DNA from: a virus | Direction: 5' to 3' (one strand) | IMG/VR virus record: IMGVR_UViG_3300042691_018353 | Coordinates: 1 to 23,469 of that record | DNA: 23,469 nt | Shown: in pieces, positions 1-17,225 of the stretch | Position numbering within the stretch: the first letter of the stretch is position 1 | Layout: each line of letters begins with the position of its first letter | Position numbers and translations under genes: made by a program | The notes under the pieces: model-generated | Told to the model about the DNA's origin: nothing | What the model saw: only the letters and a program-made list of their open reading frames with translations | Database searches by the model: none

Positions 1-1702
1 CTACAACACCTTGTAGACGACCATTCAAGTATTCTCTAAGATATCTAGCTTGACCTGCTTTACTGTGAGTTCTACTACTTAAAAGATTTGTGTTATACTT
101 TTCAGAAGCTTGCTTTAGTGCTTGATGAATTTCTCCTCCAATAGCAGTTCCTTCATAATTTTGTCCTCCAAGCTTAGTTACATCTCCTTGATCTTGGTAA
201 GGATAATCCAGATCTTTAATCAAACCTTTTGTTGAAATGTTAGGATTTTTAACAGACGTTATGTCTTTACCTAACATTTGTTTTATCTTATTAGATAAAG
301 TGGGTGCTCCAAAATTCGTGTTGTTATCTAGCGTTATACTACCTAAAGTGACCCACCCTGTTTTAGGATCATTTACCTTAACTGTTAATGAAACCTTATC
401 TTTAAATGAAGAATTAGACTGAAAATAGTATGGGTCTAATTTTACCTCTACATCTGTTTTTTTAATCCCAAGTCCTTTTGACAAGAGATCGTTTGTTTCA
501 TTAATTACAGATTTGAGATCGTTTGACTTTATTCTCTTATCTACAGCTTTACCAGCAACTTCATCTAGTTTATTAAATACCTTTTTTAAACCTTCCTTAG
601 GTGGGGCATTAAGTATATTTCTTAGAGGCTCTAATTTAACACTAGCATCGTCTATTGCACCATATATTGATCGATAAATAGGCATGCCTGTATTTCCAAA
701 CAACTCATCATGCAAAATTCTTTCATATCTAAGAGCTCTATGGGGCATTGCTGAGGTTTCAACATCTATTTCTGGTATAGTTTTACCAGTCTTCTTTACC
801 ATGAAATCTTCCAACCAACGAGTAGCTTCTGAACTTGTTAGACCAAAACGATTCATTACTTCAGGAGCAGCAACAAATCTTGTCCAATTTTGTCCCATTT
901 GAGGATCTCTTCCAAAAGGATATTTAGGAGGAGTGAGTGCTTTTTTAGCTGCAAGTAATTCTTGAACAGCTGGCTGAACTACTGGCTTACTAAGCACGCT
1001 TAGTCCTGGGCCTACACCTGCTGCTGATGCCAATAAATCAAATCCCATCATTGCTCCACCTAATACATTATTAGCTGTAAATCCTTTATTAGGATCGATA
1101 CCATATTGATTTGTTCCAGATACTTGTGATGCTAATCTTCCTGTTGATGTTATGGGGGCTAGCCATGGATGTGCGTTTATAAAGACATCTGAACCAGCTC
1201 GTCCAGCATCATAATCTCTTCCTGAGGGCGTGAGCATTGCTGCTGTTTTGACAAGTTCAGGAGTTTGAATAAAAGAAGCAGCTGACCATTCGCTAGGTGA
1301 GGCACTCTCTTTTATTACAAGATCTCCTGTATCAAAGTTGTATTTATACTTATCAGGGTTTGATTGTGCAATTTCTCTATTGCGTTGTCTTCTTATCTCT
1401 TCTGCTTTTTCTCTTTCAGGTCCAGACAATGGCACACGATCTGCACTTACAGTTGCTTGACTTCTCATGGAAGTTTCTATGTAATCCTGTTTAAGTCTTT
1501 TCTCGTCTTGAGCTTTAACTTTTACAGCAGTTTCGTTCTGTTGTTTGATATTTGGAACACCAGCTCCAACAGCATCGCTTGTAGGAGTCATTACAATACG
1601 ATCCTTCCATGAAAAGGGTTTAGTTGTAGCGTCTGTTGTAGTGGAAGACACCTCTCCTCCATCAGCATAGTTGTTTAACCAACCTTTTATTTTCTTTGCC
1701 AT
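1..1702 (-). CDS. Large internal virion (cargo/ejection-type) protein, 3'-truncated by window edge
   Basis: An open frame of 567 codons starts with ATG at 1702 and runs off the left edge with no stop, so the C-terminus is missing. The ATG overlaps the TAA of the upstream gene (TAATG), implying coupled translation. The N-terminus is lysine-rich and carries GWLNNYADGGEV (residues 7-18), a type of start I associate with internal virion proteins of Bacteroidota phages. Residues 55-112 are highly charged and probably helical. Residues 213-234 form a Gly/Ala/Met-rich hydrophobic stretch (GGAMMGFDLLASAAGVG) that could contact membrane or pack in a capsid lumen. The rest is mixed and hydrophilic. Its place directly after the muzzle genes matches the cargo proteins of crAss-like phages, which are packed in the tail or head and ejected into the host. 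No catalytic motif was seen. The class is an inference from position and N-terminus. Confidence 0.6.
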   Translation of the reverse strand, partial: MAKKIKGWLNNYADGGEVSSTTTDATTKPFSWKDRIVMTPTSDAVGAGVPNIKQQNETAVKVKAQDEKRLKQDYIETSMRSQATVSADRVPLSGPEREKAEEIRRQRNREIAQSNPDKYKYNFDTGDLVIKESASPSEWSAASFIQTPELVKTAAMLTPSGRDYDAGRAGSDVFINAHPWLAPITSTGRLASQVSGTNQYGIDPNKGFTANNVLGGAMMGFDLLASAAGVGPGLSVLSKPVVQPAVQELLAAKKALTPPKYPFGRDPQMGQNWTRFVAAPEVMNRFGLTSSEATRWLEDFMVKKTGKTIPEIDVETSAMPHRALRYERILHDELFGNTGMPIYRSIYGAIDDASVKLEPLRNILNAPPKEGLKKVFNKLDEVAGKAVDKRIKSNDLKSVINETNDLLSKGLGIKKTDVEVKLDPYYFQSNSSFKDKVSLTVKVNDPKTGWVTLGSITLDNNTNFGAPTLSNKIKQMLGKDITSVKNPNISTKGLIKDLDYPYQDQGDVTKLGGQNYEGTAIGGEIHQALKQASEKYNTNLLSSRTHSKAGQARYLREYLNGRLQGVV

Positions 1703-2583
1703 TATTTATAAGAGATTTGTGCTGGAGTCACAATGAACTGACTAGTTAAATGTGCGTCTGAGCGATTATCTAATATATGTCTTACTTTTAATTCTTTTGC
1801 TCTTAGAGGTTCCTTCTTAAAGGATCTCTTACCATAGTCCATATTTGACTGGTTCACCAACTTATCCAAAGATAGGGTTGAGCAACAGTCTGTTACAAAC
1901 AAAGGTATTCTTTTATCCTTTACCAAAGACCAGAATGTATTGTACTGGTAGAAGTTGTCACTCTTTGTGAAGGTGATGGTTTTGCTCTCAGTTCCATATA
2001 TAGGATATTTCATATACTCGCTGAGGTTGCGCAATGGTTTTGGTACAAGTTCTAGCACACCTGTAGACTGTTGTCCATTGTACAGAACAGCCTTGTTAAA
2101 CCATATGTCGTCAGTTTCTATTTTAGCATTGTCGTTCCATACACCATTAGGAGAGTCTAAATACTGATATGCTTTTGTATAGTCTTTTACGTTCTGCAAG
2201 ATTTCATCTTGGAACTGGTATGCAAAAGGATATTCTATTATATAAGGATACACAGTGTTGTAGTAGTAGTTGTATATCTTTGGATTGGTAAGATGTCTCC
2301 AAAGAGATGCTGTGTTTGTATTGGTAAACTTGAGATCTACTATGTCAAGCACAGTGAGTTCTGTAATACCAATTCTTATCTCCACTTCACAATTTGTAGT
2401 ACACCCCTTAACAGACTTTATTATTACAACACTCACGTTATCAGCCACCTCAACAGTCAGTCCAGATATAAGCTTACTCTTAGGAACAGATGTTCCCAAG
2501 ACGTTTCCAAAGTTATCTGTCACATCAAAAGGACCAGTTCTTGATCCTGCCTTTGTTAATTTTATGGTTATTATTCTTGACAT
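1702..2583 (-). CDS. Probable C-terminal segment of the muzzle protein with an N-terminal TGPF module
   Basis: 293 residues, ATG start, TAA overlapping the next ATG. Residues 1-72 form a small beta-rich module with TKAGSRTGPFDV, a glycine turn, a K-x-x-L-x-x-G segment and CTTNCEVEI. The same pattern opens the adhesin at 12110-13927. From about residue 92 the character changes to dense aromatic sequence: SLWRHLTNPKIYNYYYNT, then YPYIIEYPFAYQFQDEILQN (about 112-131), DDIWFNKAVLYNGQQ, LVPKPLRNL, MKYPIY, FTKSDNFYQYNTFW, and RSFKKEPLRAKELKVRHILD near the end. I recall these motifs from the extreme C-terminus of single-chain stabilisation/muzzle proteins of Bacteroidota phages. Together with the two upstream genes this suggests a muzzle split into several chains. 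It probably sits at the tail tip. Alternative: an independent tail-tip protein that evolved from a duplicated muzzle end. Confidence 0.62.
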   Translation of the reverse strand: MSRIITIKLTKAGSRTGPFDVTDNFGNVLGTSVPKSKLISGLTVEVADNVSVVIIKSVKGCTTNCEVEIRIGITELTVLDIVDLKFTNTNTASLWRHLTNPKIYNYYYNTVYPYIIEYPFAYQFQDEILQNVKDYTKAYQYLDSPNGVWNDNAKIETDDIWFNKAVLYNGQQSTGVLELVPKPLRNLSEYMKYPIYGTESKTITFTKSDNFYQYNTFWSLVKDKRIPLFVTDCCSTLSLDKLVNQSNMDYGKRSFKKEPLRAKELKVRHILDNRSDAHLTSQFIVTPAQISYK

Positions 2584-2602
2584 CTATAGTTAATTAATGT
2601 GA

Positions 2603-3415
2603 TTATGGACAATCCCCACTTGTACTACAAGGTAATGTCCCTCCTGTTATTGTTAATGGGAAGAATGATATTACTGAAGACTGTTGAGCACAAACTTTCA
2701 CTGTCTCTCCACTTAGCAGTATTGTATTCATAAATGTACCATCACACATAACATAAGTAAAGTCTGAAGTCTTGTCTGTGTCATTTGTCACTGTGTAACA
2801 GAAACAGTTTATACACTCACCAAAGGCAAGAATAGCAAACCCAACTCCAGGGTCAGCGAAAGGTGCATTACAAGAACATGCATTAATGAAGCTACCTGCT
2901 TCTAAATAAATTACATATTCTTCATTTGTGTAACATGATGTTAGTGTTACTGGTTGTAGAGTAAGTGTTGTATTTGTAATTGTATAAGTGAAACACGAAG
3001 GACAAATTGTTGTAGTTGATGTAGTGGTACTTGTACTTGTACTACTACTTGTAGTGGTTGTTGTTGGGTTTGGTTGTATTACAAAGTTTCCTTCAATCTC
3101 ACAATCAAGAACAGTTGTAGTTGTTGTAGTTGTAGGTTCTGGTGGCTTACACCCTATACAAGGAGTGGTTGTACTTGATGTGGTGAAAGGTACTTCCTCA
3201 AAAGCAATCGCAGATAGATCACATCCTCCATTGAGTCCTGAGTAGAAGAAATTGTTCTCAGCAACATACCAGTTTGGAATGTAGCTGTGAAAAGAAATCC
3301 AACTCTTTGTATTAAAATTAAACGAAAGAGTCCAGGACTTATTACAGAAATATTCAGGATCTGTAACGTCAATTACAGTTCTTCTATAAACAGGTGTACA
3401 ATTGTTTTGTGCCAT
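2603..3415 (-). CDS. Muzzle-derived segment fused to Thr-rich linkers and two Cys-containing beta modules
   Basis: 270 residues, ATG after an A-rich gap of 15 bases behind the muzzle stop. Residues 20-63 contain KSWTLSFNF, TKSWISFHSYIPNWY and NNFFYSGLN, which I recognise as a conserved stretch near the C-terminus of Bacteroidota-phage stabilisation/muzzle proteins. Thr/Ser-rich linkers follow (about 78-101 and 118-136). Two related modules come next: C141-x19-C161-x12-G174-x5-C180 and C206-x17-C224-x11-G236-x5-C242, each opening with an aromatic-Thr-Ile/Val-Thr-Asn strand (FTYTITN, CYTVTN). A similar module lies inside the muzzle protein at residues 637-674. No signal peptide or membrane segment is seen. 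The likely role is a displayed tail-tip component, possibly host-surface binding. That role is inference; the domain layout is visible in the sequence. Confidence 0.6.
   Translation of the reverse strand: MAQNNCTPVYRRTVIDVTDPEYFCNKSWTLSFNFNTKSWISFHSYIPNWYVAENNFFYSGLNGGCDLSAIAFEEVPFTTSSTTTPCIGCKPPEPTTTTTTTVLDCEIEGNFVIQPNPTTTTTSSSTSTSTTTSTTTICPSCFTYTITNTTLTLQPVTLTSCYTNEEYVIYLEAGSFINACSCNAPFADPGVGFAILAFGECINCFCYTVTNDTDKTSDFTYVMCDGTFMNTILLSGETVKVCAQQSSVISFFPLTITGGTLPCSTSGDCP
3008..3133. repeat. Low-complexity trinucleotide tracts encoding Thr/Ser linkers
   Basis: Two GTN-rich tracts on the plus strand (3008-3064 and 3113-3133) encode runs of Thr and Ser on the minus strand within the 270-residue gene, separated by a short cysteine-containing spacer. 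Imperfect trinucleotide reiteration of this kind is prone to slippage, so linker length may vary between isolates. Confidence 0.75.
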
Positions 3416-3430
3416 TTCTATCTCTTTTGT

Positions 3431-6400
3431 TTAACAAGCCCCAGACACATCTGGAAGTCCTGCTATTGTACCATCTGGTTTAATTTTAGCATAGTAGTTT
3501 AATCCAGAAAGTGAATTTGTTATTTTATGATACCAGTTTTGTCCATTGTATGGAATAGTCAGTCCTAAGTCTACATAGAATGTCATACCTGATGTAAATG
3601 TAGGTATGTCACTATATAGCGTAGCGCCACCTGTAGATATGAAGCATATCGCACCACCTGTTGTATTTCCTGCATCGTTTGTTCCAATCCAGTAATTAGG
3701 AGGTATTGCTGTTGTCGTGCTACTAGTGGTAGAAGTCGTACTTGTAGTACTTGTAGTTGACGTTGTGCTTGTGGTACTTGATGTCGACGTTGACGTGCTA
3801 CTACTACTTGTCGTAGTGGTTGTAGGACAATCGATAACAAGTTCCTCTATATAGAACTCTTTTGTTGTTTCATCGTATTTGATTCTTGGATCAGTAGGAA
3901 CATAGTCTAGTTTTGATATGATCACTCTATCATACTTAGAATCATACACACCATGTAATCCAATTCCATTGAAGTGGTTATCTGTGTCAACGTTAGGGAA
4001 ATGTCTCAATATCTCAAAAGCAAGATGGTCTGTGAAGAATCTGTTTAGTCCTGAGCCAAATGCAGAAAGATCTGTAGCACCTTGTCCTGTAAGAAGAAAC
4101 ACTTGTCCTCTCTTAGCATCTACAGTAACCTGTCCTTGAGGAATCTTCAAGAGCATTTTGTTCTGACATCCCACATATCCAAGATCTGTTTCAGCAAAGT
4201 CTACAGGAGGAGCTCCTTCAAATAGTTTACTGTTTCCTATATATGCAGCTTTTGGATTACTTGTATCAATTGTTATAAGCTGATTATACAGAAGTGTCTT
4301 GTTCTCAAACCTTGCAAGAATTTCTTTGTTCTGTACACCATCTAATGATGTAAGTTTTCCATAGTTCTGAGGGAAATCAAAAAACGAAATAGGACGATAT
4401 ATCAACCAGTTATTTGTTTGGTTTGTTACACTGTCCTGCTGCATATCAGAGTATATTGTTCTGAATGGATAGTAGGTGTAACAAAGCCTCTTCTGCCAGT
4501 CTACAGGAAGATGAGAGAAGTAGTTCTCTCTATTTTGTTTAGAATAGGTTACGTTATAGTAGTATGTATTGTCCTGAGCAATGGTTACAAAACTTTCTTG
4601 TAACCAGTCATCAGGAATACTTGTACTTACATGAGGCCAGAACTCCCCTTCTCTGTTATTGAACGCTTGACGAAGGTCTACATTTATTAAACTTTCGCAA
4701 TAGAACGAGGGAATACCATAAGCAAATAAGTAGAACTTACCATCATAGTATGTTCTTCCAGGATTATTTGTAGCAGGGGTTTGACTATTTGGACAATCAA
4801 AGTTGTGAGCCTTTATAGATATGAGGTTTGTCATATTTAAAGGATTACTATTAACTGTATTAGTATAGTTTCCCAATACAGATCTTGCAGAGTGCCAGTA
4901 TTTAGGATAGGCAACATTACCAATCTCATCGTAGAATATATCTGAATCATCAGGAGCACTTACACGATTATCTATGAAGAATGGAAGCTTTGTCTTGAAT
5001 GCAAATCTGCTGATGAACGTGTCGCCACCAAACACTGTTACAGTTCCTTGAGCATATGGATCCAATGACTTTTGAAGATCAATGTTTCTTTGGAATCCTG
5101 TATCAATAGTGTCATACGAATACATTTGTCCCCATTGGTTGACAAAGTCATTTTTCATAGAAGCATAATACGCAACAACTTTTGTATTGACTTCTTGTTG
5201 AGGTTTATTACATGAACTTCCTCTTGTAGTATCAGACAGAACAAATCTTGTATCATCCTCTATAAGACTTGTTCCTGATGACATGAGGCTTGGTGTGTTG
5301 TTTGGGAAAGGAAGCGCTGATCTTGTTAACGTAACTGCCTGTACACCACTTCCTAATGGTGTAATCGTGTAACTTATAGAACCACTTACATATACAGGAT
5401 AAGTTGTAGAGTTGTAAGTCAAACATGTTGACGCTCCAGGGATATTCACTGTCATTGATCCAGTTGCTGGATCTGTTATCTTTATTACAGTGTCATTTGT
5501 AGAAAGAATTGCGTTATTACAAATTTCATAAACTATGTAAGGAACATCGTATGTGTTAGTTTCACTAGCTGTCTTAATGTAAACTGATGATTCTCTATAC
5601 CAGTTGTTTACGTTGTGGTCATCGTTTACGTTTTGTACAACAGGAATAAGATATTGTGCAAGATCAATCTCTCTTTGCTTAACACCATTGTCGTTTGCTA
5701 TTATAGAAGAGTAGTCATATCCTGCAATAGAATTGAACGAGTATGCATAGTTTCTTCTTGTAATACCATTAACATATATTGTAAGGTATGACTGATAAGC
5801 AACAAACATTGCAGCTGGATCAAATGTTCCTGTAAAATTGGCTATCGATGCAGATGAGTCGAGAGCATCGTTTTGTGCTTCAGCTGTAAGAAGTTTATAG
5901 TTTGCATTATCTCTCACTTGTACGAAATGGGCTTTCCCTGCACCATACATTACGTTTTCAAGTTTTAGTATGTTCCCAAGGAAGGGTTGTCCAAAAGATG
6001 TATCAGGAGAATTAAATATAAGTCTATACGCAGACTCAGGAAACTTAAATCCATCTAGAGGAGATGGTGCGCAGTTTCCATTATCAATATCTGCAATCTT
6101 CTCAACTGTTCCAGCATAAATAGGATTACAACAAGTGTATGTTGGAGGAATTAGCGAATCTATATAAAATATGTCTCCTACGTACTGACCAGATGAGGTA
6201 TAGTTATTTAAAAAATATCCATCAGATGGAAAACTTGCATAAATATTGTCATCAAGACATGCTTTACATCCTTGATCGTTTGGATAATCAAAACAAAAAT
6301 CTACCCATGTAGAATATCCTAGTGGAGGATTTCCATGTGGAAGAGTCCAACCAAATGCTGTAAATGACGCCCCTCCTGTAGGAGCAGTATTAGCAAATAT

Positions 6401-8542
6401 GTTTGGAGGAGTGAATCTATAAAACACACCACCAGCACCAGTAATTTTATATCTGCTATATGTGTTACATGTTATAAAGGCTGTTCCTGATATGATGTTT
6501 GGTTTTGGATAGGAGAAAGAACACACTTCTTTTACTTCACCTGCTTTTACTTCTATTGTATCTAGTAAAGTTGTCTCACAATTTTGATATTCAATTACAG
6601 TATCTGTCTTTGCTGTAATCGTAAAGCTTCTACACGTAACTGTTGTATTTACTCCTGATATAAATGCAGTGGTGTAACTATTGCTTGAGTCATTGATAAA
6701 TGGATCAGGCCTAAGGTCGTTATATGGGTAGTTTGGATAGTAATAGTCTGTTCCTTCTCTATTGTACTTTCCTACATTCCTAAGTATGCCCTTTGCTATG
6801 ATGGACTTGTTTGTACCACGATCTCCTCTGACTATTTTGAATGCTACAATCTCTGACTTCTGCTCAGGTGTAAGATCTGATTGTTGTATTAGAGATAATA
6901 CTTGTCCAACATCAAGCTTTACACCAATTGGGAAGATTGCATCCTTTTGCATTACAGGAGCATACTTTCCATTACCATCTATAAATATTGTAGGACTTTC
7001 AAATATAGGAGAGACTAAGACATCAGGAAATTTGTGATGTCTGATTGGTTGATTAGAGAGTTCTCCCCACACTTCCTCGTTACATGGATAGGTTTCTGTT
7101 GATTCCCAATATGCAAACTCGCCATATTCCCAATCACCTTTGTAGGAACTCAATCCTGATTTACCAGGAGCGTCCCCAACTTTATATGCTGTATTATATA
7201 TTTTCCAATATGGACTGTAGCCTAAGTTGTTAACTATTGTATCAGGTTCACCTACAAAATCTTGATTTGTCTGATCGAGAAGAACTAAGTCTTGTGGATT
7301 GACAGCTCTTCCTGGGATGTGGAAACCATCTGTTTGTTTACCATTCCTTAGGAGGAAGACTATTTCAAACGCATACACCTCATCACGCATGTACCCACGT
7401 AGGTTTGTTGCGTTTACCTCATCAGCATAAGATTCTGTGTTTGGAATTCTATAACTCTGCCATTGAAGAGTTATTCTATTCGCTATCTTCTGGTAGTTTA
7501 TTCTTTCAGCAGACGTGAGGTTGTCCCATACAAGAATGTCTTGTACAGCTGTAATATCTTGAGCTACATCATAATATGGGAACTTCTCGAATATATCATC
7601 TACTGTAAGTCTTATCTGTGTTACATTTTGACCTGTGTAAATGATTTCTTTTTGAGCTCTATCTATAAAATATGTTCCAATCAGTTCTACAGAACTAATG
7701 TTATTTACTGTTTTAATTACAGCAACGTTGAAATACTGAAAGTATCCAGTGATATCTATGTTCTTAATATTCAACACAATAGATCTACCCACCTCATAAT
7801 TAAAATCAAGTGTAATCTTATTAGGATCAAAGATTGGGGTAGGGTTAGTTACAGAGTAGTAGGATGTATATCCTGTTCCTATGGAATCACAGTATTGTAT
7901 TGCGAATTGATATGTACCAGCTGTTAGGGCACCACCATTTCTTACATCTACAACACTAAGATCAGGAATCTCAAAGTTTGGTTGTACCTTGAGTTTGTTA
8001 CAATCAATGATAGGAATTCTCTCGTTGTCACAAACATCTGTTCCTGGAGTTACAGTGTATATGCTTGAAATGTCTTCAAGGTCAACGTATCTTCTTGGAT
8101 TAAATCCATCTGTCCAGTATATCTCTGTAGCACAGTTTGATATTTTATGAACAGCTTTGTGTATTGGATATTTTATGTTGAAGTTGAGACATGGTGCGTT
8201 TACAAATGTGCGATAGATGCAATCATTGTTATCCATATATCCAATCTCTGATTCTCCTGTATCAGGATTTGCAAGAAAGAATACGTGTTTACTTTTCTCA
8301 TTTATGAAGTGTTCGCCAATCAAATGATACCCTGTAGGAAAATTCAAACAAAACTCATTACCTGGTTCATTTTGATAATTGACAGAATTAGCGTCAAAGT
8401 TCTCAACAGAAGCGTTCAGAGCATACGATAGTATACCTTTTGGAATCTGATTTACAGATTGATCCATATTAAGGCCAAGTCTCCCTACATTATACTCTGG
8501 GTTTATATTATTACCCTGATTAGTTATTTCTTCTCCAGCCAT
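3431..8542 (-). CDS. Muzzle / tail stabilisation protein (very large)
   Basis: 1703 residues, ATG start 23 bases inside the upstream ring-protein gene. The N-terminus (NMDQSVNQIPKGILSYALNA, then NEPGNEFCLNFPTGYHLIG, EIYWTDGFNPRRY) matches my knowledge of crAss-like muzzle and P22 gp10-type stabilisation proteins, which close the tail distal end with a propeller fold. Other conserved stretches are NYPYNDLRPDPF (about 610), FNSPDTSFGQPFLGN, YYASMKNDFVNQWGQMYSYD, FGGDTFISRFAFKTKLPFF and NVAYPKYWHSARS. Between the conserved blocks lie apparent insertions. One holds C637-x14-Y-x2-C655-x12-G668-x5-C674, the module seen twice in the next gene. Another spans about 1005-1075. After KYDRVIISKLDYVP (about 1536) the chain ends in a 38-residue Thr/Ser linker (1574-1611) and a 92-residue tail domain. 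The final parts of the usual muzzle core appear to be encoded by the next two genes. Gene order ring-IHF-ring-muzzle supports the call. Confidence 0.85.
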   Translation of the reverse strand: MAGEEITNQGNNINPEYNVGRLGLNMDQSVNQIPKGILSYALNASVENFDANSVNYQNEPGNEFCLNFPTGYHLIGEHFINEKSKHVFFLANPDTGESEIGYMDNNDCIYRTFVNAPCLNFNIKYPIHKAVHKISNCATEIYWTDGFNPRRYVDLEDISSIYTVTPGTDVCDNERIPIIDCNKLKVQPNFEIPDLSVVDVRNGGALTAGTYQFAIQYCDSIGTGYTSYYSVTNPTPIFDPNKITLDFNYEVGRSIVLNIKNIDITGYFQYFNVAVIKTVNNISSVELIGTYFIDRAQKEIIYTGQNVTQIRLTVDDIFEKFPYYDVAQDITAVQDILVWDNLTSAERINYQKIANRITLQWQSYRIPNTESYADEVNATNLRGYMRDEVYAFEIVFLLRNGKQTDGFHIPGRAVNPQDLVLLDQTNQDFVGEPDTIVNNLGYSPYWKIYNTAYKVGDAPGKSGLSSYKGDWEYGEFAYWESTETYPCNEEVWGELSNQPIRHHKFPDVLVSPIFESPTIFIDGNGKYAPVMQKDAIFPIGVKLDVGQVLSLIQQSDLTPEQKSEIVAFKIVRGDRGTNKSIIAKGILRNVGKYNREGTDYYYPNYPYNDLRPDPFINDSSNSYTTAFISGVNTTVTCRSFTITAKTDTVIEYQNCETTLLDTIEVKAGEVKEVCSFSYPKPNIISGTAFITCNTYSRYKITGAGGVFYRFTPPNIFANTAPTGGASFTAFGWTLPHGNPPLGYSTWVDFCFDYPNDQGCKACLDDNIYASFPSDGYFLNNYTSSGQYVGDIFYIDSLIPPTYTCCNPIYAGTVEKIADIDNGNCAPSPLDGFKFPESAYRLIFNSPDTSFGQPFLGNILKLENVMYGAGKAHFVQVRDNANYKLLTAEAQNDALDSSASIANFTGTFDPAAMFVAYQSYLTIYVNGITRRNYAYSFNSIAGYDYSSIIANDNGVKQREIDLAQYLIPVVQNVNDDHNVNNWYRESSVYIKTASETNTYDVPYIVYEICNNAILSTNDTVIKITDPATGSMTVNIPGASTCLTYNSTTYPVYVSGSISYTITPLGSGVQAVTLTRSALPFPNNTPSLMSSGTSLIEDDTRFVLSDTTRGSSCNKPQQEVNTKVVAYYASMKNDFVNQWGQMYSYDTIDTGFQRNIDLQKSLDPYAQGTVTVFGGDTFISRFAFKTKLPFFIDNRVSAPDDSDIFYDEIGNVAYPKYWHSARSVLGNYTNTVNSNPLNMTNLISIKAHNFDCPNSQTPATNNPGRTYYDGKFYLFAYGIPSFYCESLINVDLRQAFNNREGEFWPHVSTSIPDDWLQESFVTIAQDNTYYYNVTYSKQNRENYFSHLPVDWQKRLCYTYYPFRTIYSDMQQDSVTNQTNNWLIYRPISFFDFPQNYGKLTSLDGVQNKEILARFENKTLLYNQLITIDTSNPKAAYIGNSKLFEGAPPVDFAETDLGYVGCQNKMLLKIPQGQVTVDAKRGQVFLLTGQGATDLSAFGSGLNRFFTDHLAFEILRHFPNVDTDNHFNGIGLHGVYDSKYDRVIISKLDYVPTDPRIKYDETTKEFYIEELVIDCPTTTTTSSSSTSTSTSSTTSTTSTTSTTSTTSTTSSTTTAIPPNYWIGTNDAGNTTGGAICFISTGGATLYSDIPTFTSGMTFYVDLGLTIPYNGQNWYHKITNSLSGLNYYAKIKPDGTIAGLPDVSGAC
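3710..3823. repeat. Trinucleotide tract encoding a 38-residue Thr/Ser linker
   Basis: 114 bases encode only Thr and Ser (muzzle residues 1574-1611), largely as a repeating Ser-Thr-Thr unit. The tract separates the muzzle body from a 92-residue C-terminal domain. Codons are varied (ACA, ACG, ACT, AGT, AGC, TCG), so selection on the protein rather than pure slippage probably maintains it. Confidence 0.85.
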
Positions 8543-9485
8543 ATCTGTTTATTCTATTTGGTAATTCGTACATGTTAAACCTGTTCAAATCATTTATTAT
8601 TCGTCTCTGTTTAGCATATACGTCTTGTTTCTTAATTTCAATATCTGCCATGATGAAGGCTTCTTCAGACAACTGCTTGTAGTAGGCAAGCTTTTGTTGT
8701 AGTTGTTGAAAAGTCTCATCGTTAATTTGATTTGCCAATGTTTCAAACACCTTATACTTAATGAATGCTTCAATATATTCTTTAATACGATAGTTATCTG
8801 GAATCATCTGGTTTCCACCATTGTCATACTCTGTAGCATAGAAAACTAAATGAACAATCCCATGTCTGAAATTAGTGACAAACTTGTTGTCTCTGATATC
8901 AAATGAATCCAAAGACGAGGATGCTGGTGTAAACTGGTTAAGTGGAGCAGCTTGTTGTCGAAAGCTCCAATTGTTTGTGTAGTCTACATCACAATGACTT
9001 CTAACAGAAATGTTTCCTGGCTTCAACAGATAATCTCTTTTATAAGTTCTTGGAATCTGTTGATTTGTTTTATATACAGCCTGAATAAGATCTGGCATAC
9101 ATGTACAAGCATTTGGAGGACAATTGCTATTACAAGGAACTTGATCTATTATTACAGGGCTCACTTGTATAGTTGTCTGTAGTGCAGCTTGAGAATAAAA
9201 CGAATTAGCAGTTTGATATGAGTTTCCTGGAACCTCAGTACACATCCATGCTTCTCTTACAGCATAAAAGTTATCTGGAAGTCTAGCCTGAAAGTCCTCT
9301 ATGAATAGAGCAGTTTCAGCAATGACATAAGTAGTTCTTCCTAGTTTCCTAAGACACTTGTCTAAGTATGTTGGAAACAGAAGATCATCTACAGCACCTG
9401 TATCGAAGTAGCTTTTCAATTCTTCTTTTACAACAGAATAAACTACCTCAGGGGTTGTAAAATCATATTTATAGTAGTATGACAT
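8520..9485 (-). CDS. Ring / tail adaptor protein (head-tail connector family)
   Basis: 321 residues, ATG after an A-only/AT context (AAAAAATAAAATAAA). The N-terminal third has helices with LDKCLRKLGRTTYVIAETAL and LPDNFYAVREAWMC, the pattern of phage adaptor proteins that stack under the portal. A middle Cys-rich loop (PCNSNCPPNACTC, about 118-130) looks like a family-specific insertion. Then comes GIVHLVFYATEYDNGG followed by MIPDNYRIKEYIEAFIKYKV, a conserved signature of tail tubular/ring proteins (P22 gp4-like). The C-terminal 70 residues are helical and charged, ending RRNN. The stop overlaps the muzzle start, so the two are probably translated together. The muzzle docks on such rings in crAss-like virions. 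Which ring number it corresponds to cannot be settled by eye. Confidence 0.75.
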   Translation of the reverse strand: MSYYYKYDFTTPEVVYSVVKEELKSYFDTGAVDDLLFPTYLDKCLRKLGRTTYVIAETALFIEDFQARLPDNFYAVREAWMCTEVPGNSYQTANSFYSQAALQTTIQVSPVIIDQVPCNSNCPPNACTCMPDLIQAVYKTNQQIPRTYKRDYLLKPGNISVRSHCDVDYTNNWSFRQQAAPLNQFTPASSSLDSFDIRDNKFVTNFRHGIVHLVFYATEYDNGGNQMIPDNYRIKEYIEAFIKYKVFETLANQINDETFQQLQQKLAYYKQLSEEAFIMADIEIKKQDVYAKQRRIINDLNRFNMYELPNRINRYGWRRNN

Positions 9486-9491
9486 TTTATT

Positions 9492-9965
9492 TTATTTTTT
9501 CCATTCGTTATACATATGTTGATACTTCTCATTGGTTTTTATGTAGTGGGACAAAAGCCTTGATGTAACTCTTGATGCTTTGAAATACCAGAGATCAATG
9601 TTCTTTAATCTTGCGCTTTCTTTGAACCACATCCATCCAAAAAAGAATCCTTCTGTATGATAATTAAAGTTATAGATTCTTTTTCCTTTTTCTTTAGTTT
9701 TCTGCCAGTCAATTGGAAGATTCACAAACTCATCGTTCAATCCTTTCCTCTTCCTCCTCTTCTTCTTGTTTATGGAAAACTCTCCAAATCCAAAAGGAAG
9801 CTTTGCCTTCTCTCCTGTTTCCAGTATGTAGTTTTTGAAAGAATCATTAAATGAATAAATGATGTTTCTCCATTCATCAAACGATAGGTTTAACGATGGA
9901 TGTTTCTTACAAAAACTATTGTAGTTTTCTCTACTAGCACTTCTCCAATCTATTTTTACTCTCAT
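9492..9965 (-). CDS. IHF/HU-like basic protein encoded among the tail ring genes
   Basis: 157 residues, start overlapping the upstream stop (ATGA). Residues 32-75 resemble the HU/IHF core: an amphipathic helix (WRNIIYSFNDSFKNYI) leads into GEKAKLPFGFGEFSINKKKR, echoing the LPGFGTF-x-basic strand-turn of HU/IHF, then a cluster of Lys/Arg. The second half, with YHTEGFFFGWMWFK and a long helix, is extra relative to bacterial HU (about 90 residues). crAss-like genomes are known to carry IHF-family genes next to tail genes, which fits this place between two ring-protein genes. It may bind DNA in the tail or act structurally; the sequence alone cannot tell. The canonical DNA-intercalating arm proline was not identified. 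Confidence 0.5.
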   Translation of the reverse strand: MRVKIDWRSASRENYNSFCKKHPSLNLSFDEWRNIIYSFNDSFKNYILETGEKAKLPFGFGEFSINKKKRRKRKGLNDEFVNLPIDWQKTKEKGKRIYNFNYHTEGFFFGWMWFKESARLKNIDLWYFKASRVTSRLLSHYIKTNEKYQHMYNEWKK

Positions 9966-10690
9966 CTTCCAGCAGGTGCGTTTGGTGCTTGACCATCCAT
10001 TTGATCTTCTGTCAAGTCTGTTTTTAATGTAAAGTATGTAGATAGAAGTTTCTGCGATGTCAGCTGTAACACCTGACTCTCCAAATATCCAGGCAAACCA
10101 TAAGGTTTATCTAGAGGATTCATGCACCACTGTTCATCTGTTGGTTGGGGTGTTCCACAGTCACACTCAGGAAACATCACTTCATTAGGAACATCTTGTT
10201 CAAAGAATGCTGCTATTCGTATAGCTTGGAGCAAAGGATTGCTTACATACAAATAGTCATTCACAATCCAATAGTATTCCTCGTTCTTTATGACAGGGAG
10301 CTTTAAAAGATTTATATATCTGTTAATGGTAATCTCTTTTAGTTTCTTTCCACTACCACTCATTGCATTTATAGAATACACTCCCTGGATGAGATACTGG
10401 TAGTTTCCTTCTCCTATTCTTGGTAGCTTATATCTGCTTCTTGCCACAGTGCATTCGTCTACATAGTCGCAACACTCTGAAATAGGAACTTCCACCATCT
10501 CCAAACAAGGAATAGTGGTGAACAAAGTTGACGTAGCCCAAAGCTTTCTGAGATTTGTTTCTCTCTTTATCAAAAGCTGAGCGTTGTTTTTAATCTCAGA
10601 AGCTATTGCACGATCTGTTATCAAGCTGTCTGTAGACAGAAGCTTGTGCATAGATCGTACGTCTGATACTAGTTTTCTTAATGTTGACAT
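9962..10690 (-). CDS. Tail ring / connector-type structural protein
   Basis: 242 residues, ATG three bases after the metallophosphoesterase stop. The N-terminus is helical (STLRKLVSDVRSMHKLLSTD) and continues ITDRAIASEIKNNAQLLIKR and LRKLWATSTLFTTIPCLEMV, sequence I associate with conserved structural proteins of crAss-like phages. Residues 70-160 are beta-rich and include YKLPRIGEGNYQYLIQGVYS and a YYWIVNDYLYV strand. A Cys/Pro loop (PECDCGTPQPTDEQWC, about 173-188) precedes a helix and a flexible hydrophilic tail. Its end overlaps the next start by four bases. Neighbours (IHF-like, second ring, muzzle) support a neck or ring role. No enzyme motif seen. Confidence 0.65.
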   Translation of the reverse strand: MSTLRKLVSDVRSMHKLLSTDSLITDRAIASEIKNNAQLLIKRETNLRKLWATSTLFTTIPCLEMVEVPISECCDYVDECTVARSRYKLPRIGEGNYQYLIQGVYSINAMSGSGKKLKEITINRYINLLKLPVIKNEEYYWIVNDYLYVSNPLLQAIRIAAFFEQDVPNEVMFPECDCGTPQPTDEQWCMNPLDKPYGLPGYLESQVLQLTSQKLLSTYFTLKTDLTEDQMDGQAPNAPAGR

Positions 10691-10692
10691 AG

Positions 10693-11916
10693 TTATATTC
10701 TTGATTCAAACTCTCCTATCTTTCCAAGATTAGGATCGTATATGAGCACAAGACCAGCTCGTATGTTATTTACATAATTATTGTCAGCATGCCATCTATC
10801 AGTTCCTGAAAGACTAGGCATTTGTTGTATTCTTACACCTTTCACCTCTTTAGCCATGTAATGGTGCTTATCGCCTGTGTGCACTTCTCTATACTTAGCA
10901 CCACCAAACTTAAAAGAATTATTACCTGTTGCAAACAGTAATGGTAGCTCATCTATCTTACAGTTACCATGATGATACCCTATAAATGTGCTTCCTAGCA
11001 CCACTGATTTAGTTGTAGAGTGTTCTCTCTGAAAAGATATCTTTTCGTTGTTCCTGAAGAAGATGTCTAGTGCGTGTGCAAGGTAGAATGATTTTGTTCT
11101 GTCATGATTTCCTTGTACAAGAATCACTTCCACTTCTTCTGCAACTTCCTGAAGATAGTTTATAGCTGTTACCAAAAGGTCAAACCCCTCCTCATACTCG
11201 TGATTGTATTCTGCAAGCACATCTTGAGGAGTACCATTTGTAGTTTGATTCTGGTAGTTATCTGTATGAAAGAAGTCGTTTGATATTGGAAAAACTACTT
11301 TTCTGATCAAAAAGTTGGATGTAACTTTTTCTATAAGATCGTATAAAGTTACTAGATATTGTATTTTCTTTTCTTGTATTGATTCTCCCTCAAGAGTCTT
11401 TTTGGCTAAGTGAAAGTCTGCTATTGAAACCTCGATATCAACTGTTGAAGTATAAACAGAGTCATTAATAACAGTTCTAACAACGACCTCTTTAGGAGTA
11501 TAGTTCTCAAGAAACTTTGCAAAGTCTTCTACTGTGTAATCTTTTGGTTGTCTGAGAGTTGCAAATACAGAAGATGTAAACTTTCCACTAGACTTCTGTT
11601 TAGTCCAGTAGTTCGAAATCTTATACTTGTCAAGATTTATCTTATGTAGTTTCGCTAGCTCGATGTCATCCTTAGGTTCAAAGTCAGTTTCGATTATTGA
11701 CTCTAGTGTACCTCTGTCGTTATTTACTTTTACAACCAGCTCCTCTAAGTTGCTTATGTAGTTACCAACTTCTGCGTCTTGTTGATTTCTTAGTTCTTTC
11801 AATAAGTTTTCTACATCTTTCTCTGAAATCCCAAGCCTGTTTGCGTAAAAACTTTTACTTTTCTTCCAACTTAACATTTGAGATAGTTCAGAGGACAGGG
11901 ACAGATTATTTTGCAT
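10693..11916 (-). CDS. Calcineurin-like metallophosphoesterase with N-terminal helix-turn-helix
   Basis: 407 residues. Residues 11-45 look like a small helix-turn-helix (FYANRLGISEKDVENLLKEL). The catalytic domain begins near 160 with metal-ligand motifs in the expected order: D167-x-H169, N213-D214 (usual GD replaced by ND), G269-N270-H271-D272, H315-H316, and GDKHH (348-352), where the usual GHxH has D in the second position. The later MPSLSGTDRWH segment is typical of phage members. The family cleaves phosphomonoester or phosphodiester bonds, often in nucleic acid, using two metal ions. It is the first gene after a terminator and may have its own promoter, so it could be expressed separately from the fibres. 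An enzyme among virion genes is unusual; it may be packaged, process DNA or RNA late, or be a resident gene. The substrate cannot be told. Confidence 0.82.
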   Translation of the reverse strand: MQNNLSLSSELSQMLSWKKSKSFYANRLGISEKDVENLLKELRNQQDAEVGNYISNLEELVVKVNNDRGTLESIIETDFEPKDDIELAKLHKINLDKYKISNYWTKQKSSGKFTSSVFATLRQPKDYTVEDFAKFLENYTPKEVVVRTVINDSVYTSTVDIEVSIADFHLAKKTLEGESIQEKKIQYLVTLYDLIEKVTSNFLIRKVVFPISNDFFHTDNYQNQTTNGTPQDVLAEYNHEYEEGFDLLVTAINYLQEVAEEVEVILVQGNHDRTKSFYLAHALDIFFRNNEKISFQREHSTTKSVVLGSTFIGYHHGNCKIDELPLLFATGNNSFKFGGAKYREVHTGDKHHYMAKEVKGVRIQQMPSLSGTDRWHADNNYVNNIRAGLVLIYDPNLGKIGEFESRI

Positions 11917-12109: not shown

Positions 12110-13927
12110 TTAAGGTGTTTCACAAATTAGTAATGTGTCAGAACTGTCGTAGTATTCTACTTTAATAGCGTAGTCAGTATTGTTAGGTAAAGTGAGACCT
12201 GTGAACGATGCGTTGTAATATACGTACGTCATAGGTGTAGGTATGTCTACAAACTCAACTGTTGCACTAGTGATTGTATTATATAGAACCACTTTAACAT
12301 AGGCTAGTAGAGGATTACTATTTGTTCTCTCATCCAAGTTAAACTCATAATATGCTGTTGTAAGTGTTGGTATGTTGAAACCAACAGTTGGACAAATCAG
12401 ATTATATGTAAGAGGACATTCTGTAAGATCTTCGTATGGAGGTATGTAATCTGGGTCTCCTAGCACATTAGGTTTTGTAAGACCTGTATTAATACCTGTA
12501 GCAAAGTTGTATTGCTCAAGTGTAACCACATCAACCATTCCTGTATTATACGAGTTTACAGAATTATTAAAGAATGTCACTTTACCATCTCTGGCAGGGT
12601 TTACTGTTCCCCAAGGAGCAGCCCCACCATCTGGTGCCATCAAGCTATCTGTTCCAAAACTATCTGCTACAGGAGCAATCTTATATACAAATACGTCATC
12701 AATCCATCTAACATATGCACCAGTAGCTCTATCAATCTCGTATGTTTTATTACCTGTTGTTCCTCCTATAACCTGACATCCAGCATAAAGTTTTTCTGAA
12801 ACAGGGTCAATAGTGTAATACACGACCATGTTAGTGTTTGCAAGGCTGTTGAACCTAACACTTTGATTCTCAGAACTTATTGGACCAACTGCACCAGTGA
12901 ATGTACTGTTAACTGTAAATCTAAAAATGTTGTTACTACCAATGTCTGATAGATAAAAAGTATTGTAAAACTCATCGTAAAAACCAAACTGCCAATACGA
13001 ACCTCCTCCACCTGCGTAAGGTGCTGTTCCTGTTAATGTTATTGTAGAGTTGTAGGTTAGATCTTGATTAAATACAAGAATATTTCCTGATGGACTGCCT
13101 ACTCCACCTGTGTATGCTCCTGGTCCTGCAACAATCCAATACTTATCTCCAACTTCTATTACGTTCATAGCGTTGGTGACATTGTGAAAGTTTCCTCCTG
13201 TATTATCATAAGCAACAAATGTCACTGATGTAGGAGTGGCTCTGTCTAGAACCCCAAACCCAACAGTAGCTCCACTATACGCTCCTCCAACAATGATTGA
13301 ATTAGTTGTTACGAACAAGGAGATTCTACTAAAAGGAGTGTCAATACCATATGGGTACACTTGATGTGTATTTGTATCAATGTCGTAACTTATCAACCCT
13401 GTATTTGGAACTGTTTGAACACTGGTGCCTGTTAAGTAGATTCTTCTGTAAACAGTGTCTACATAAAGGCTGTACAAAGAGTCGAATTGAATGCCTGTAT
13501 AATACGTGGCATCACTTGCTGTTGTAGCAGTGAATGGATCGAACCAACTTATGTTACCTCTAATGTAATCTTGATGATCTGCTACATAAACACGATTAGT
13601 TGTATTGTCATAGTATGTAGCTCCAGGAGTAACGTAATCTGTAACCTCGTGTGTAATTTCAAAGTTGGAAGCTTGTTCACATTCTGTTGCAAGAGCTCTC
13701 CATCGAAGATCAAGTAGTGTAAGTTCTGAATAGTTTGTACAAATACCCATTGACATAGCCCTTATATCAGTTGTCCCATCAGGAACAACGTATGATGTGT
13801 ATCCTGCAAGAAGGGTTGCCTTATCAATATTTGTTTCAAAAGCAGATGAAAATCCATCTACATCTGAATATAGATTAAATGGACCTGTGTCTGCTCCTGC
13901 AACTGTAAGTGTTATTAATGCTATCAT
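12110..13927 (-). CDS. Putative tail-associated adhesin: TGPF module plus propeller-like domain
   Basis: 605 residues, ATG after CAATTATAAAATCAAAAA. Residues 1-72 form the same module as in the muzzle-end gene: TVAGADTGPFNLY, then DKATLLAGY, VPDGTTDIRA and GICTNYSEL. From about 100 to 460 the sequence carries repeated short strands resembling a YncE/NHL-type beta-propeller: TTNRVYVADHQD, TVYRRIYLTGTSV, TNSIIVGGAYSG, YNTFYLSDIGSNNIFRFTVN and SEKLYAGCQVIGG. About 515-605 looks like a fibronectin/Ig-like beta-sandwich (YYEFNLDERTNSNPLLAYVK ... LPNNTDYAIKVEYYD). No catalytic motif is seen. As the last gene of the fibre block it is likely a receptor-binding or decoration protein. The propeller call rests on repeat texture only. 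It lacks the collar and YadA-like parts of its neighbours. Confidence 0.55.
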   Translation of the reverse strand: MIALITLTVAGADTGPFNLYSDVDGFSSAFETNIDKATLLAGYTSYVVPDGTTDIRAMSMGICTNYSELTLLDLRWRALATECEQASNFEITHEVTDYVTPGATYYDNTTNRVYVADHQDYIRGNISWFDPFTATTASDATYYTGIQFDSLYSLYVDTVYRRIYLTGTSVQTVPNTGLISYDIDTNTHQVYPYGIDTPFSRISLFVTTNSIIVGGAYSGATVGFGVLDRATPTSVTFVAYDNTGGNFHNVTNAMNVIEVGDKYWIVAGPGAYTGGVGSPSGNILVFNQDLTYNSTITLTGTAPYAGGGGSYWQFGFYDEFYNTFYLSDIGSNNIFRFTVNSTFTGAVGPISSENQSVRFNSLANTNMVVYYTIDPVSEKLYAGCQVIGGTTGNKTYEIDRATGAYVRWIDDVFVYKIAPVADSFGTDSLMAPDGGAAPWGTVNPARDGKVTFFNNSVNSYNTGMVDVVTLEQYNFATGINTGLTKPNVLGDPDYIPPYEDLTECPLTYNLICPTVGFNIPTLTTAYYEFNLDERTNSNPLLAYVKVVLYNTITSATVEFVDIPTPMTYVYYNASFTGLTLPNNTDYAIKVEYYDSSDTLLICETP

Positions 13928-13936
13928 TTTTTGATT

Positions 13937-16123
13937 TTATAATTGTACCCATAGGCTACCATTCCAATATTCCAGTCTAGCTGCATCAAGGTTGTACCCC
14001 ATTTCTCCAGGCTCAGGAGAAGTAGGTCTGCCAACTTTTACCACTTCAGATCCATGTGACCAATCTGTAGCACTCGTCCCTGGACCAGCAATAAATGTGT
14101 ATCCTGTAGTGTTAGGTTGTCCCCACAATGGTCTGTCTACAAGATTTGAGAAATCATCACCTGTTTCGTATTGTGTAATTATATATTTTGCTCCACCATC
14201 AAATGTTTGACCACCTGTAGCAACCCATCCACTATCTGTCCATTGTGGAGGAAGCATTCCTCTCTGTCCTGCTCTTGCGTCATGACCATCTTTGGACTTA
14301 ACAAACCCACTCTTCATTACATGGAATATGTTAAGCTTTTCTGCAGGATCTACTCCAGACTGTGTACCATTACCTACACTGAATGTAGGATAGGAAGAAA
14401 CGCCAAACTCAAGAAGATAATCAACTGCACCTATGTTATTATATGAACCAACTTGAAGTGTCCCTGTGTTTGCAGAAGGAATGTCAAGATCATATCCTAT
14501 AGCATGAGAGCGTGTTCCTTGGTTACTTATAGAAAAACCAAGTGCTCCTGAGTTACCATTAGCTATGGTATTTGATTCTCCTATTGCATAACTTGATGAT
14601 CCTGAAGAGAGCGTATTCAGTGCGCCAGCAGCAAAACCATTTTCTCCACCTCCTGCAAGTGTATTGTTTGTTCCTACTGCTACTCCCCATTTCTGTGTAG
14701 GAATGCTATTGTTTCCAATTGATATATAATCATGTTCTCCATAGAGCACTTTTGATCTTGTATTAACTCTTCCAATACCACTTTCTGCTCTTGTAATTAC
14801 AAATGCTGATCTAGTATCAAAATCTACCACTGGAAAATCTCCTTCAATTTTTGATGCTGTCCATATAGGTGCTGTACCATTTGCAATGAATACGCAACCA
14901 TTAGTGTTAATTGTTCCTGAGTATATACTGTCTACAGAAGGTGAGAAATCGTCTGCAGGATCATAATTTGCTATGGTGAAGTAATCTCCAGACTTAAGTG
15001 TTGCAAGACCTGTGTCTGCTGTATATTCAGCAGAACTATACCACGTTTCTTGCCAATTTGCGTTACCAACTCGCTCGTCATAATAATGAGCAAGGAACGC
15101 AGAAGTTCTATTTACTGAGTGAATATAGTCTACTACTTGGAAGTTATGCAAAGAATCCATAACAACCCATGGGTGAGCTGCTTCCCAATTAGCCTGAGCA
15201 TTGTAGGCACTACTTGTATAGTTTGTCAACCATGTTGCTGCAGAAGATTTAAATACAATAGTTCTTGTAACAGATCCTGTTGGAGTGACTGCTATTTGGT
15301 CTCCTGCTTGGAGATATTGAACGCTCTTGTTACCAATTAAAAAAGAGTATATGCTAGGATCAGTGTAGTCTGCTAACGTGAATGTGAAACCATTCATGTT
15401 TACATTAGTATTCTTTATTAAAGTGCCACCTAGCTCGATGTTGTTTCCTGTCTTTGTAAGACCATTGTTTGCTGTAATAGGAGTTCCTAATATCGCACCA
15501 AGAGAAGCTGTAGAGATTCTTCTAACAACACCTGCTGTAGTTTCTGTAACAATAAAATCAGGATTAGCATCTGTCTGAAGCCCAGCTAATGTTAATGTGT
15601 TAACTGCATCTGTAGTTACAGTGGTTGGCTTAATCAATGGCCCACTCAACTGAATGATTCCTCCTGATATGCTAATACCATTGTTGGCAGAGATTCCAGA
15701 AATTATGCTAGCTATTGTTGTTTTTCTAATTACACCAGAACTTGTTTGAGAAAGTATGAATGCAGGATTTGTGTCTGTTGACAATCCTAATAAGGACAGT
15801 GTATTTGCAAAACTTGTTGTAATTACAGTTTGTTGGATTAGTTCTCCACCAAGCTGAATGTTATTTGCAGTTTTGGTTAATCCATTATTTGCTGTTACAG
15901 AAAGTGCTGGAGGATTACAAATCACAGCATCTATCTTCTGAAGAGCTAGTGAAATGTTATCGCATGGATTTATTCCTGAGCAAGGAAGAGTTGGTCCTAT
16001 GTAGAAGACAGCATCGCTTCCAAGTTTTATCGTGTTACATGGATCGAGATTACAGCCTCCTGCAGTTCCTCCTGTTGTATGTATTGTGCTAGTGTAGCAA
16101 GGTGTACCTGGTAAACAAGACAT
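13937..16123 (-). CDS. Long fibre protein with tandem repeats and YadA-like head
   Basis: 728 residues, ATG after TTTAAACTTAATATAA. The N-terminus is Cys-rich with VFYIGPTLPCSGINPCDN and LALQKID, a motif I know from fibre anchors of Bacteroidota phages; a related form is in the next fibre upstream. Residues 78-252 hold two and a half repeats of about 69 residues, each starting with ANNG(L/I) and containing (N/G)NI(Q/E)LGG-type strands. Residues about 255-460 are a mixed domain. Residues 462-555 carry YadA/Hep-Hag-like head repeats (WGVAVGTNNTL, GFAAGALNTL, SYAIGESNTI, SGALGFSISN, SHAIGYDL), which form trimeric beta-rolls in adhesins. The C-terminus (MGYNLDAARLEYWNGSLW) resembles fibre tips. 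Likely a trimeric head or tail fibre contacting the host surface. Whether it attaches at head or tail cannot be told. Confidence 0.75.
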   Translation of the reverse strand: MSCLPGTPCYTSTIHTTGGTAGGCNLDPCNTIKLGSDAVFYIGPTLPCSGINPCDNISLALQKIDAVICNPPALSVTANNGLTKTANNIQLGGELIQQTVITTSFANTLSLLGLSTDTNPAFILSQTSSGVIRKTTIASIISGISANNGISISGGIIQLSGPLIKPTTVTTDAVNTLTLAGLQTDANPDFIVTETTAGVVRRISTASLGAILGTPITANNGLTKTGNNIELGGTLIKNTNVNMNGFTFTLADYTDPSIYSFLIGNKSVQYLQAGDQIAVTPTGSVTRTIVFKSSAATWLTNYTSSAYNAQANWEAAHPWVVMDSLHNFQVVDYIHSVNRTSAFLAHYYDERVGNANWQETWYSSAEYTADTGLATLKSGDYFTIANYDPADDFSPSVDSIYSGTINTNGCVFIANGTAPIWTASKIEGDFPVVDFDTRSAFVITRAESGIGRVNTRSKVLYGEHDYISIGNNSIPTQKWGVAVGTNNTLAGGGENGFAAGALNTLSSGSSSYAIGESNTIANGNSGALGFSISNQGTRSHAIGYDLDIPSANTGTLQVGSYNNIGAVDYLLEFGVSSYPTFSVGNGTQSGVDPAEKLNIFHVMKSGFVKSKDGHDARAGQRGMLPPQWTDSGWVATGGQTFDGGAKYIITQYETGDDFSNLVDRPLWGQPNTTGYTFIAGPGTSATDWSHGSEVVKVGRPTSPEPGEMGYNLDAARLEYWNGSLWVQL
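15368..15892 (-). repeat. Protein-level tandem repeat region in the long fibre
   Basis: Residues 78-144, 146-212 and 218-252 of the fibre are related copies (period about 69 residues, third copy partial). Shared landmarks are ANNG, a NI(Q/E)LGG-like strand, LIK-x-T, TLSLLGL/TLTLAGL, TD(T/A)NP and a closing GV(I/V)R(K/R). The DNA copies have diverged, so recent amplification is unlikely. Confidence 0.75.
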
Positions 16124-16139
16124 TTATATTAAGTTTAAA

Positions 16140-17225
16140 TTATGGACGATACATTATATAATAACAAGCAATTGCTGGCTGATTGTTAGCATGTGGCAAG
16201 TTTCCTCCAGCAGCAACATTAGTAAGACTTACAGTAATTCCTGTTGTTTCAGAGCTAGTTCTGTCTGTTATAGCTCCCTCGTTAATGTTTCCTCCACTAG
16301 CATTGTGTCCATTACCACCCTCGTTCCAAACATTTGGAAGACCATGTGTGTGACCAGGATCAGTAACTGTTAAAGTGTTGTTGTGTATATGTGAAGGAAT
16401 TTGTTGAGTGGTCAGCGTTACAGAATTAGCTCCAACAATTGGACCTGCAAATGCGTAGTTTGGATTGAAAGGTGATGCTGCAGGATTTACTGCTGAAGCT
16501 AAAGGTCCACCAGGAACGCTAGCAATAGCACCAACTGCAACCACACCTCTTCTATCAGGAGTACCATTCAAACCATTACACAAATAAATCTTAGTCCAAT
16601 CTCCTGTACCTGCGCCTGTAGAATCAAATTGAGTTAATGAACCATAATATTCATAAGCGACATATGGAACCATCTTCTGACTTACCAATGTGCTTGATGG
16701 AAGACTTGCCAAGTAATCAGCAATCAGCGTATCAAATTCAGCAACTGAAACATAATCTACTGGTACTGATGCTATAAATGCACACAATGCGTTCATTGTT
16801 GCCTGAAGAATAGCATGTGTTCCTGATGTAGGGGTTACGCCTGTGATACATGAACCTATTGTATAAGGTGCATTGAGCGTAGATAGTTGAGAATTGATTG
16901 TAGAAATTGATGAGGTGTTTGTAGTCACCTGAGTTTGAAGATCGCAAGCAGCTTTCACCAAAGCTGTCAAGAAATCTACCACTGTAAGATCTCCACACGT
17001 AGGGAGATATTGTTTTACAAGATTACATATAATGGTGGGGTTAATATCAACTTTTATCCCAGAACCATCTAATGTAGATGTAAGAAATGTTATGAGAGCT
17101 TGCTCTACAAAAGATAGAGAGTCTCCATTCTTAATACCAAGAACAGGAACATCTATTCCTGTATATCTGACACATTGATCTGAAACAATCTCAGAGCAAC
17201 CATTGAAACAATTTGAACAGCTCAT
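16140..17225 (-). CDS. Fibre protein with C-terminal phage tail-collar domain
   Basis: 361 residues; ATG directly abuts the upstream stop. The N-terminus has three Cys pairs/turns (CSNCFNGC) and CVRYTGIDVPVLGIKNGDSL, a Bacteroidota-phage fibre anchor motif related to that in the long fibre. Residues 100-120 (TNTSSISTINSQLSTLN) look like a short trimeric coiled coil. From about 207 the chain matches the tail-collar/short-fibre tip family: WTKIYLCNGLNGTPDRRGVV, LTTQQIPSHIH (271-281), DPGHTHG (289-295), and NLPHANNQPAIACYYIMYRP at the end. HIH and HTH resemble the metal-binding histidines of T4 gp12-type tips. Likely a trimeric fibre recognising the host or capping another fibre. Head versus tail attachment is unknown. 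Confidence 0.8.
   Translation of the reverse strand: MSCSNCFNGCSEIVSDQCVRYTGIDVPVLGIKNGDSLSFVEQALITFLTSTLDGSGIKVDINPTIICNLVKQYLPTCGDLTVVDFLTALVKAACDLQTQVTTNTSSISTINSQLSTLNAPYTIGSCITGVTPTSGTHAILQATMNALCAFIASVPVDYVSVAEFDTLIADYLASLPSSTLVSQKMVPYVAYEYYGSLTQFDSTGAGTGDWTKIYLCNGLNGTPDRRGVVAVGAIASVPGGPLASAVNPAASPFNPNYAFAGPIVGANSVTLTTQQIPSHIHNNTLTVTDPGHTHGLPNVWNEGGNGHNASGGNINEGAITDRTSSETTGITVSLTNVAAGGNLPHANNQPAIACYYIMYRP

Follow-up and report, generated by a model that had tools for sequence, protein, structure and literature searches.

A clade of crAss-like phages that encodes its muzzle protein in pieces

Must the muzzle of a crassvirus be a single chain? The muzzle is the likely gate for DNA and protein ejection by these phages and is among their most conserved proteins (PMC10172136). 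The question is raised by a 23,469-nucleotide stretch of viral DNA (the window; IMG/VR record IMGVR_UViG_3300042691_018353, positions 1-23,469), in which a preliminary description, made from sequence alone, had assigned the muzzle core to three consecutive ORFs at 1702-8542 and proposed that the segments belong, in order, to one chain. The positions and sizes held. All three ORFs lie on the minus strand: chain A (P0001, 1703 aa; 3431-8542), which carries the N-terminal and central parts of the muzzle, chain B (P0002, 270 aa; 2603-3415) and chain C (P0003, 293 aa; 1702-2583).

Three ORFs in the slot of one muzzle gene

The crAss-like tail block occupies the minus strand of the window in the order major head protein (phrog_11589), ring 2 protein (9962-10690; PF25702, E=6e-18), ring 1 protein (8520-9485; PF24228, E=5e-12), A, B and C, with the two ring genes just upstream of chain A. 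In phiCrAss001, the ring 1 gene gp43 is followed by the single-chain muzzle gp44 and then by the cargo protein gp45; the split muzzle occupies the same slot after ring 1 as gp44. The ORF beyond C had no PHROG or Pfam match. The window also encodes an SbcD-like exonuclease that lies within the structural block and adjoins ring 2 (10693-11916, minus strand; phrog_704, E=3e-49), a tail fibre- or collar-like protein (16140-17225, minus strand; phrog_8763, E=1e-14) and a 728-aa ORF without a Pfam match (13937-16123, minus strand), the centre of which resembles, by eye, YadA-type head repeats (AIGESNTIANG..).

Against PHROG profiles of single-chain virion proteins, A, B and C aligned in their gene order to adjoining, non-overlapping stretches of one single-chain family. 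Profile phrog_37948 matched residues 1099-1624 of P0001 at profile positions 1295-1820 (E=3e-99) and residues 15-62 of P0002 at 2052-2099 (E=1e-9). Profile phrog_15100 matched residues 23-418 of P0001 at 12-421, residues 22-64 of P0002 at 1545-1587 and residues 91-291 of P0003 at 1587-1781, so that B and C meet at position 1587. The core of chain A reaches about residue 1573. The core of B, delimited approximately with an HMM at 3218-3385 (minus strand), comprises the second strand of the A/B hairpin and the segment KSWTLSFNF..NNFFYSGLNGG. Homology in C starts near residue 91 (TASLWRHLTNP), and this C core (residues 91-293; 1705-2313, minus strand) is the C-terminal part of the muzzle propeller/nozzle fold. 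The proposed order of the segments therefore held, and the outcome that would have refuted it did not occur: the smaller ORFs are the missing muzzle segments, neither unrelated proteins nor copies of regions present in A.

The single-chain relatives include phi4:1 gp042 (annotated as a virion protein from MS/MS), FpV4 gp29, Lbo-JY46 XAI97387 and the csAssE-Sib 'Muzzle protein'. Profile-profile comparison linked this family to the gp44 family (E=4e-32, 99.9%) and the C core to the single-chain family (E=9e-22). The direct match of the C core to gp44 was weak, but in the same register, so the link runs via the single-chain relatives. It was obtainable through profile-profile comparison and not through single-sequence search: neither PDB searches with the three single sequences nor one with a profile of C gave anything useful. 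B and C had no Pfam match above cutoff. We conclude that A, B and C together belong to the gp44-like crassvirus muzzles by sequence homology, via these relatives. A viral-contig scan with the Lbo-JY46 C-terminus returned no relatives. The C core had no match in genome contigs, so no host can be named. We rejected cr108_1 as a split gut muzzle, which tblastn pieces had suggested; it is a single gene. Separately, the annotated muzzle gene of cr109_1 (L093, 2598-6707, plus strand) has 18 in-frame stops under table 11, indicating a reassigned stop codon.

To place the breaks on a structure, we used a predicted model of a single-chain relative (L097:7762-9735) corresponding to the C-terminal part of A plus B and C, which was well predicted from about residue 217 onward. 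Its best PDB match was the phiCrAss001 muzzle (7QOL, chain 7qol_P; Foldseek E=8e-11), with a VIA Z of 14.6 and an rmsd of 4.3 over 354 residues (model 9-655 on chain 59-1368); podovirus nozzles came next among the VIA matches, at Z of about 10-12. A propeller/nozzle fold like that of 7QOL is thus predicted for the single-chain relative, and for the split chains it is inferred from that relative. In this model both breaks lie between beta-strands of the propeller, the A/B break within the segment FRGGRFYRNGQAVEL and the B/C break in the loop that connects strand YFQSG to strand GLWSH. In the alignment of the family with gp44, they fall at about residue 1196 and residues 1233-1236 of gp44, respectively. 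The final strands of the muzzle fold, absent from A and B, lie in the C core. Its pLDDT was mostly 80-92 within the L097 chain, against about 22-44 in P0003 alone. It is possible that C needs its partners to fold, as this predicted contrast suggests, although the shallower alignment for P0003 (16 rows against 47) may explain the low values. The Foldseek list obtained with P0003 alone (mean pLDDT 46.5) was discarded as meaningless.

Two splits of different age

We collected loci from four productive viral-contig scans and classified them with HMMs for A, B, C and the N-terminal module of C (residues 1-76; 2356-2583, minus strand), which we name GPF after its TGPF motif. Each scan retained the best 80 of about 400, giving a query-based sample from which duplicates were removed and in which the window was included. 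B and C were separate genes in all 191 non-duplicate split-clade records with both sides readable: 162 were A-B|C, 27 were A|B|C and 2 were A?B|C, all with GPF. Another 23 records, the single-chain relatives, had A-B-C in one ORF without GPF. Among the sampled records we found no exception and no intermediate between these two states. One gene and one chain, a usual although not defining trait of muzzles, is thus replaced by two or three ORFs in 191 of 191.

On the tree, the single-chain rows (those nearest to the split clade being L100, L101, L109 and L206) need one change, with support of 100; the B|C split has a single origin, in a clade with strong support. The A|B split requires about seven changes and is fixed in one subclade of 14 rows. 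The window carries it, whereas in L006, its nearest relative, A and B form one chain. The A|B split is a second, younger event, recurrent and sporadic. The preliminary description had treated both breaks alike, and this we correct: B|C alone is a fixed trait of the clade. In one record (L149, 2568-2581), an A|B break has overlapping frames and neither linker nor domain, and is possibly a frameshift error in the contig.

Each junction of the window has its own stop, an A-rich spacer of 15-19 nt (15 nt at A/B, 3416-3430; 19 nt at B/C, 2584-2602; both minus strand) and an ATG, which upholds the earlier statement that the breaks are not simple frameshifts. Across the clade, C begins with ATG in 190 of 191 records and lies downstream of B in all of them; its core was single-copy in 15 split-clade records. 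The spacing from B to C spans -4 to 4295 nt in all frames, being at most 40 nt in 149 records and at least 250 nt in 42, and in 34 contigs an extra GPF-led ORF lies between the two genes. The frame of C is open into B in 75 of the 191 records, and in-frame read-through is possible in 11. There is accordingly no conserved overlap or in-frame single stop of the kind that would mark recoding, and because the frames vary, frameshifting or read-through cannot be the shared mechanism. Nor is there an endonuclease gene or an intron at the junctions: Rfam gave no match there, and the genes between B and C are GPF-led, the eight that we tested having no Pfam match above cutoff.

Every piece is maintained as protein. 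Comparison of the window with L006 gave dN/dS values of 0.037 for the B core, 0.05 for the C core, 0.12 for the A core, 0.26 for GPF and 0.50 for the B tail (residues 135-270). Purifying selection on the B and C cores is strong, and constraint on the fast-evolving B tail is relaxed.

Modules at the cut ends

The preliminary description had noted that the boundaries are flanked by added modules. This held, but it had not separated the module at the N-terminus of C. GPF heads C in 191 of 191 split-clade records and was absent from every single-chain record tested; searches of whole records found one to five copies in 16 of 16 split-clade records and none in 11 single-chain records. It also heads the ORFs in the B-C gap and ORFs further up the tail block, including one of 605 aa in the window (12110-13927, minus strand). 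GPF had no match in Pfam or, by tblastn, in the GenBank phage collection, and for the GPF part, whether in P0003 or in the gap ORFs, no convincing PHROG or NCBIfam match was found. Its predicted fold matched mostly FnIII, cytokine-receptor and Ig chains, with VIA Z scores of up to 5.1, too low to exclude a merely common arrangement. GPF may be a small, apparently undescribed and weakly Ig/FnIII-like module, although this rests on a predicted model.

Chain A ends in a Thr/Ser-rich linker (3701-3823, minus strand; limits approximate, read from the translation) and an accessory domain (PNYWIGTND..SGAC; 3434-3700, minus strand), which had no Pfam match and whose homologues sit in the B tails of L119 and L224. 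The B tail (2606-3217, minus strand) consists of Thr/Ser-rich linkers and Cys-rich variable domains. Such linkers occur in 184 of 191 B tails, which are 6 to 1681 aa long (L029 is nearly tailless), and related domain families recur at the A-tail, B-tail, gap-ORF and upstream GPF sites. The B tail of L025 (AB ORF, 2285-8971) ends in VGGDFTAYNG-like repeats, delta-60-like by eye, possibly an extra propeller as a display domain.

In 40 of the 162 unsplit A-B chains, the 120 residues preceding the B core include a Thr/Ser run, and the single-chain muzzles of FpV4 (L004, 5526-6608, plus strand) and phi4:1 (L002, 4232-5005, minus strand) have long inserts in the A/B hairpin, without a Pfam match. 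We infer that these runs and inserts may represent a stage before the A|B cut. The FpV4 insert has a DRSGS motif that is MIDAS-like by eye. The junction modules look made for display; this too is an inference, made without a view of whether the turns at the breaks face outward.

A proposed reassembly and its rivals

These results suggest that the products of the three ORFs are translated separately and reassemble into one muzzle (nozzle) subunit. We consider this likely because non-overlapping pieces lie in the muzzle slot, are separate throughout the clade, include a single C, are under purifying selection and are broken between strands. Separate translation, co-assembly, display and a hexameric tail-tip gate remain inferences. 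The preliminary description had likewise proposed a multi-chain muzzle that reassembles in the virion and displays domains at its junctions; the proposal is supported, but without proteomics or a prediction of the complex, reassembly is still inferred. In this model, neighbouring propeller strands would pair so that the chains associate without peptide bonds, and A, B and C together would replace the single-chain tail-tip gate. The new termini would display accessory domains, at the C-terminal ends of A and B (linkers with domains) and at the N-terminal end of C (GPF). As to origin, a neighbouring tail gene headed by GPF may have donated an N-terminal GPF module that brought its own start and was joined to the C core, cutting the old gene once, in the ancestor of the clade; later insertions of linkers and domains at the A/B hairpin would repeatedly have led to a second cut.

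Of the rival explanations, neutral gene fission survives best, although we regard it as unlikely: the split would work without any display role, with linkers and tails as passengers. The variable length of the B tails, their dN/dS of 0.50 and the nearly tailless L029 are in its favour, and the split may simply be tolerated. Against it, GPF is on C in every record and under purifying selection, linkers occur in nearly all B tails (184/191), and domains of the same families turn up at A-tail, B-tail, gap-ORF and upstream sites alike. A departure of C from the muzzle, to become a separate GPF-headed tail or decoration protein, is very unlikely. GPF does otherwise head separate tail-region proteins, but the C core is the most constrained part of C (0.05 against 0.26 for GPF), has the last strands of the fold that are missing from A and B, is single-copy, is not confidently folded alone and always follows B.

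Fusion of the pieces after all, by recoding (frameshift or read-through), an intron or an intein, is all but excluded. The open C frame in 75 records and the 11 readable through in frame would permit it, but spacing and frame vary freely (of the 42 records with a gap of at least 250 nt, 34 have a gene in it), C has its own start and an N-terminal module without a single-chain counterpart, Rfam gave no match, and B and C gave none in Pfam above cutoff. Splitting by an endonuclease was rejected, as neither an endonuclease nor an intron was found at the junctions. Finally, the stops might be artefacts of sequencing or assembly in a gene that really encodes one chain, as a metagenomic contig allows and as the L149 break looks. 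This is all but excluded, and for B|C refuted, because the stops recur across independent metagenomes, whole ORFs separate B from C in 34 contigs, and the A|B junction of the window adds a linker and domain that L006 is without, which no single base error makes.

The reassembly reading sets this muzzle beside known systems. The muzzles of phiCrAss001 (gp44; 7QOL, PMC10172136), phi4:1, csAssE-Sib, Lbo-JY46 and FpV4 share its homologous core and its slot after ring 1, but they are one chain, whereas the split clade has two and the window three, and they do not have GPF on C or linker-domain tails on A and B. Insertions in the IG2 and crass domains make gp44 itself vary in length (PMC10172136). 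Podovirus nozzle and hub proteins (P22 gp10, GP4, VP1, SU10 and Pan3), which match the fold of the single-chain relative at Z of about 10-12, are single PDB chains of 445-922 residues and are not known to carry a GPF module or display linkers. NrdA of Aeh1, DNA polymerase 43A/43B of phage 25 and T4 topoisomerase likewise exist as separate, reassembling polypeptides from one ancestral chain, and the split NrdA and 43A/43B are known to function in two-chain form (PMC2988022). All of these are enzymes, and homing endonucleases split several of them; the muzzle is a virion structural protein with no endonuclease or intron found at its junctions, a clade-fixed split and accessory domains on its cut ends. 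We found no report of a split muzzle or nozzle in the open-licence literature searched (subscription papers were outside its scope), nor of cuts with added modules at propeller turns in the literature searched.

A widespread environmental crAss-like clade thus encodes its muzzle in pieces, and the propeller need not be one chain. For annotation, the small gene downstream has to be counted too: it bears no Pfam or NCBIfam name, and without it the large 'muzzle' gene of this clade is missing its C-terminal part. The breaks offer natural cut sites for structural work and hint at how tail-tip domains are gained and swapped; the inferred picture is of a tail tip resembling a self-assembling platform whose parts can be swapped. 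A bolder and speculative reading, against which we lean, is that the gate is obligately multi-chain, with chain junctions as evolvable ports, and that GPF would serve to dock accessory proteins, encoded separately, at the tail tip. If it were true, surface-contacting domains would be exchangeable as whole genes, leaving the gate untouched.
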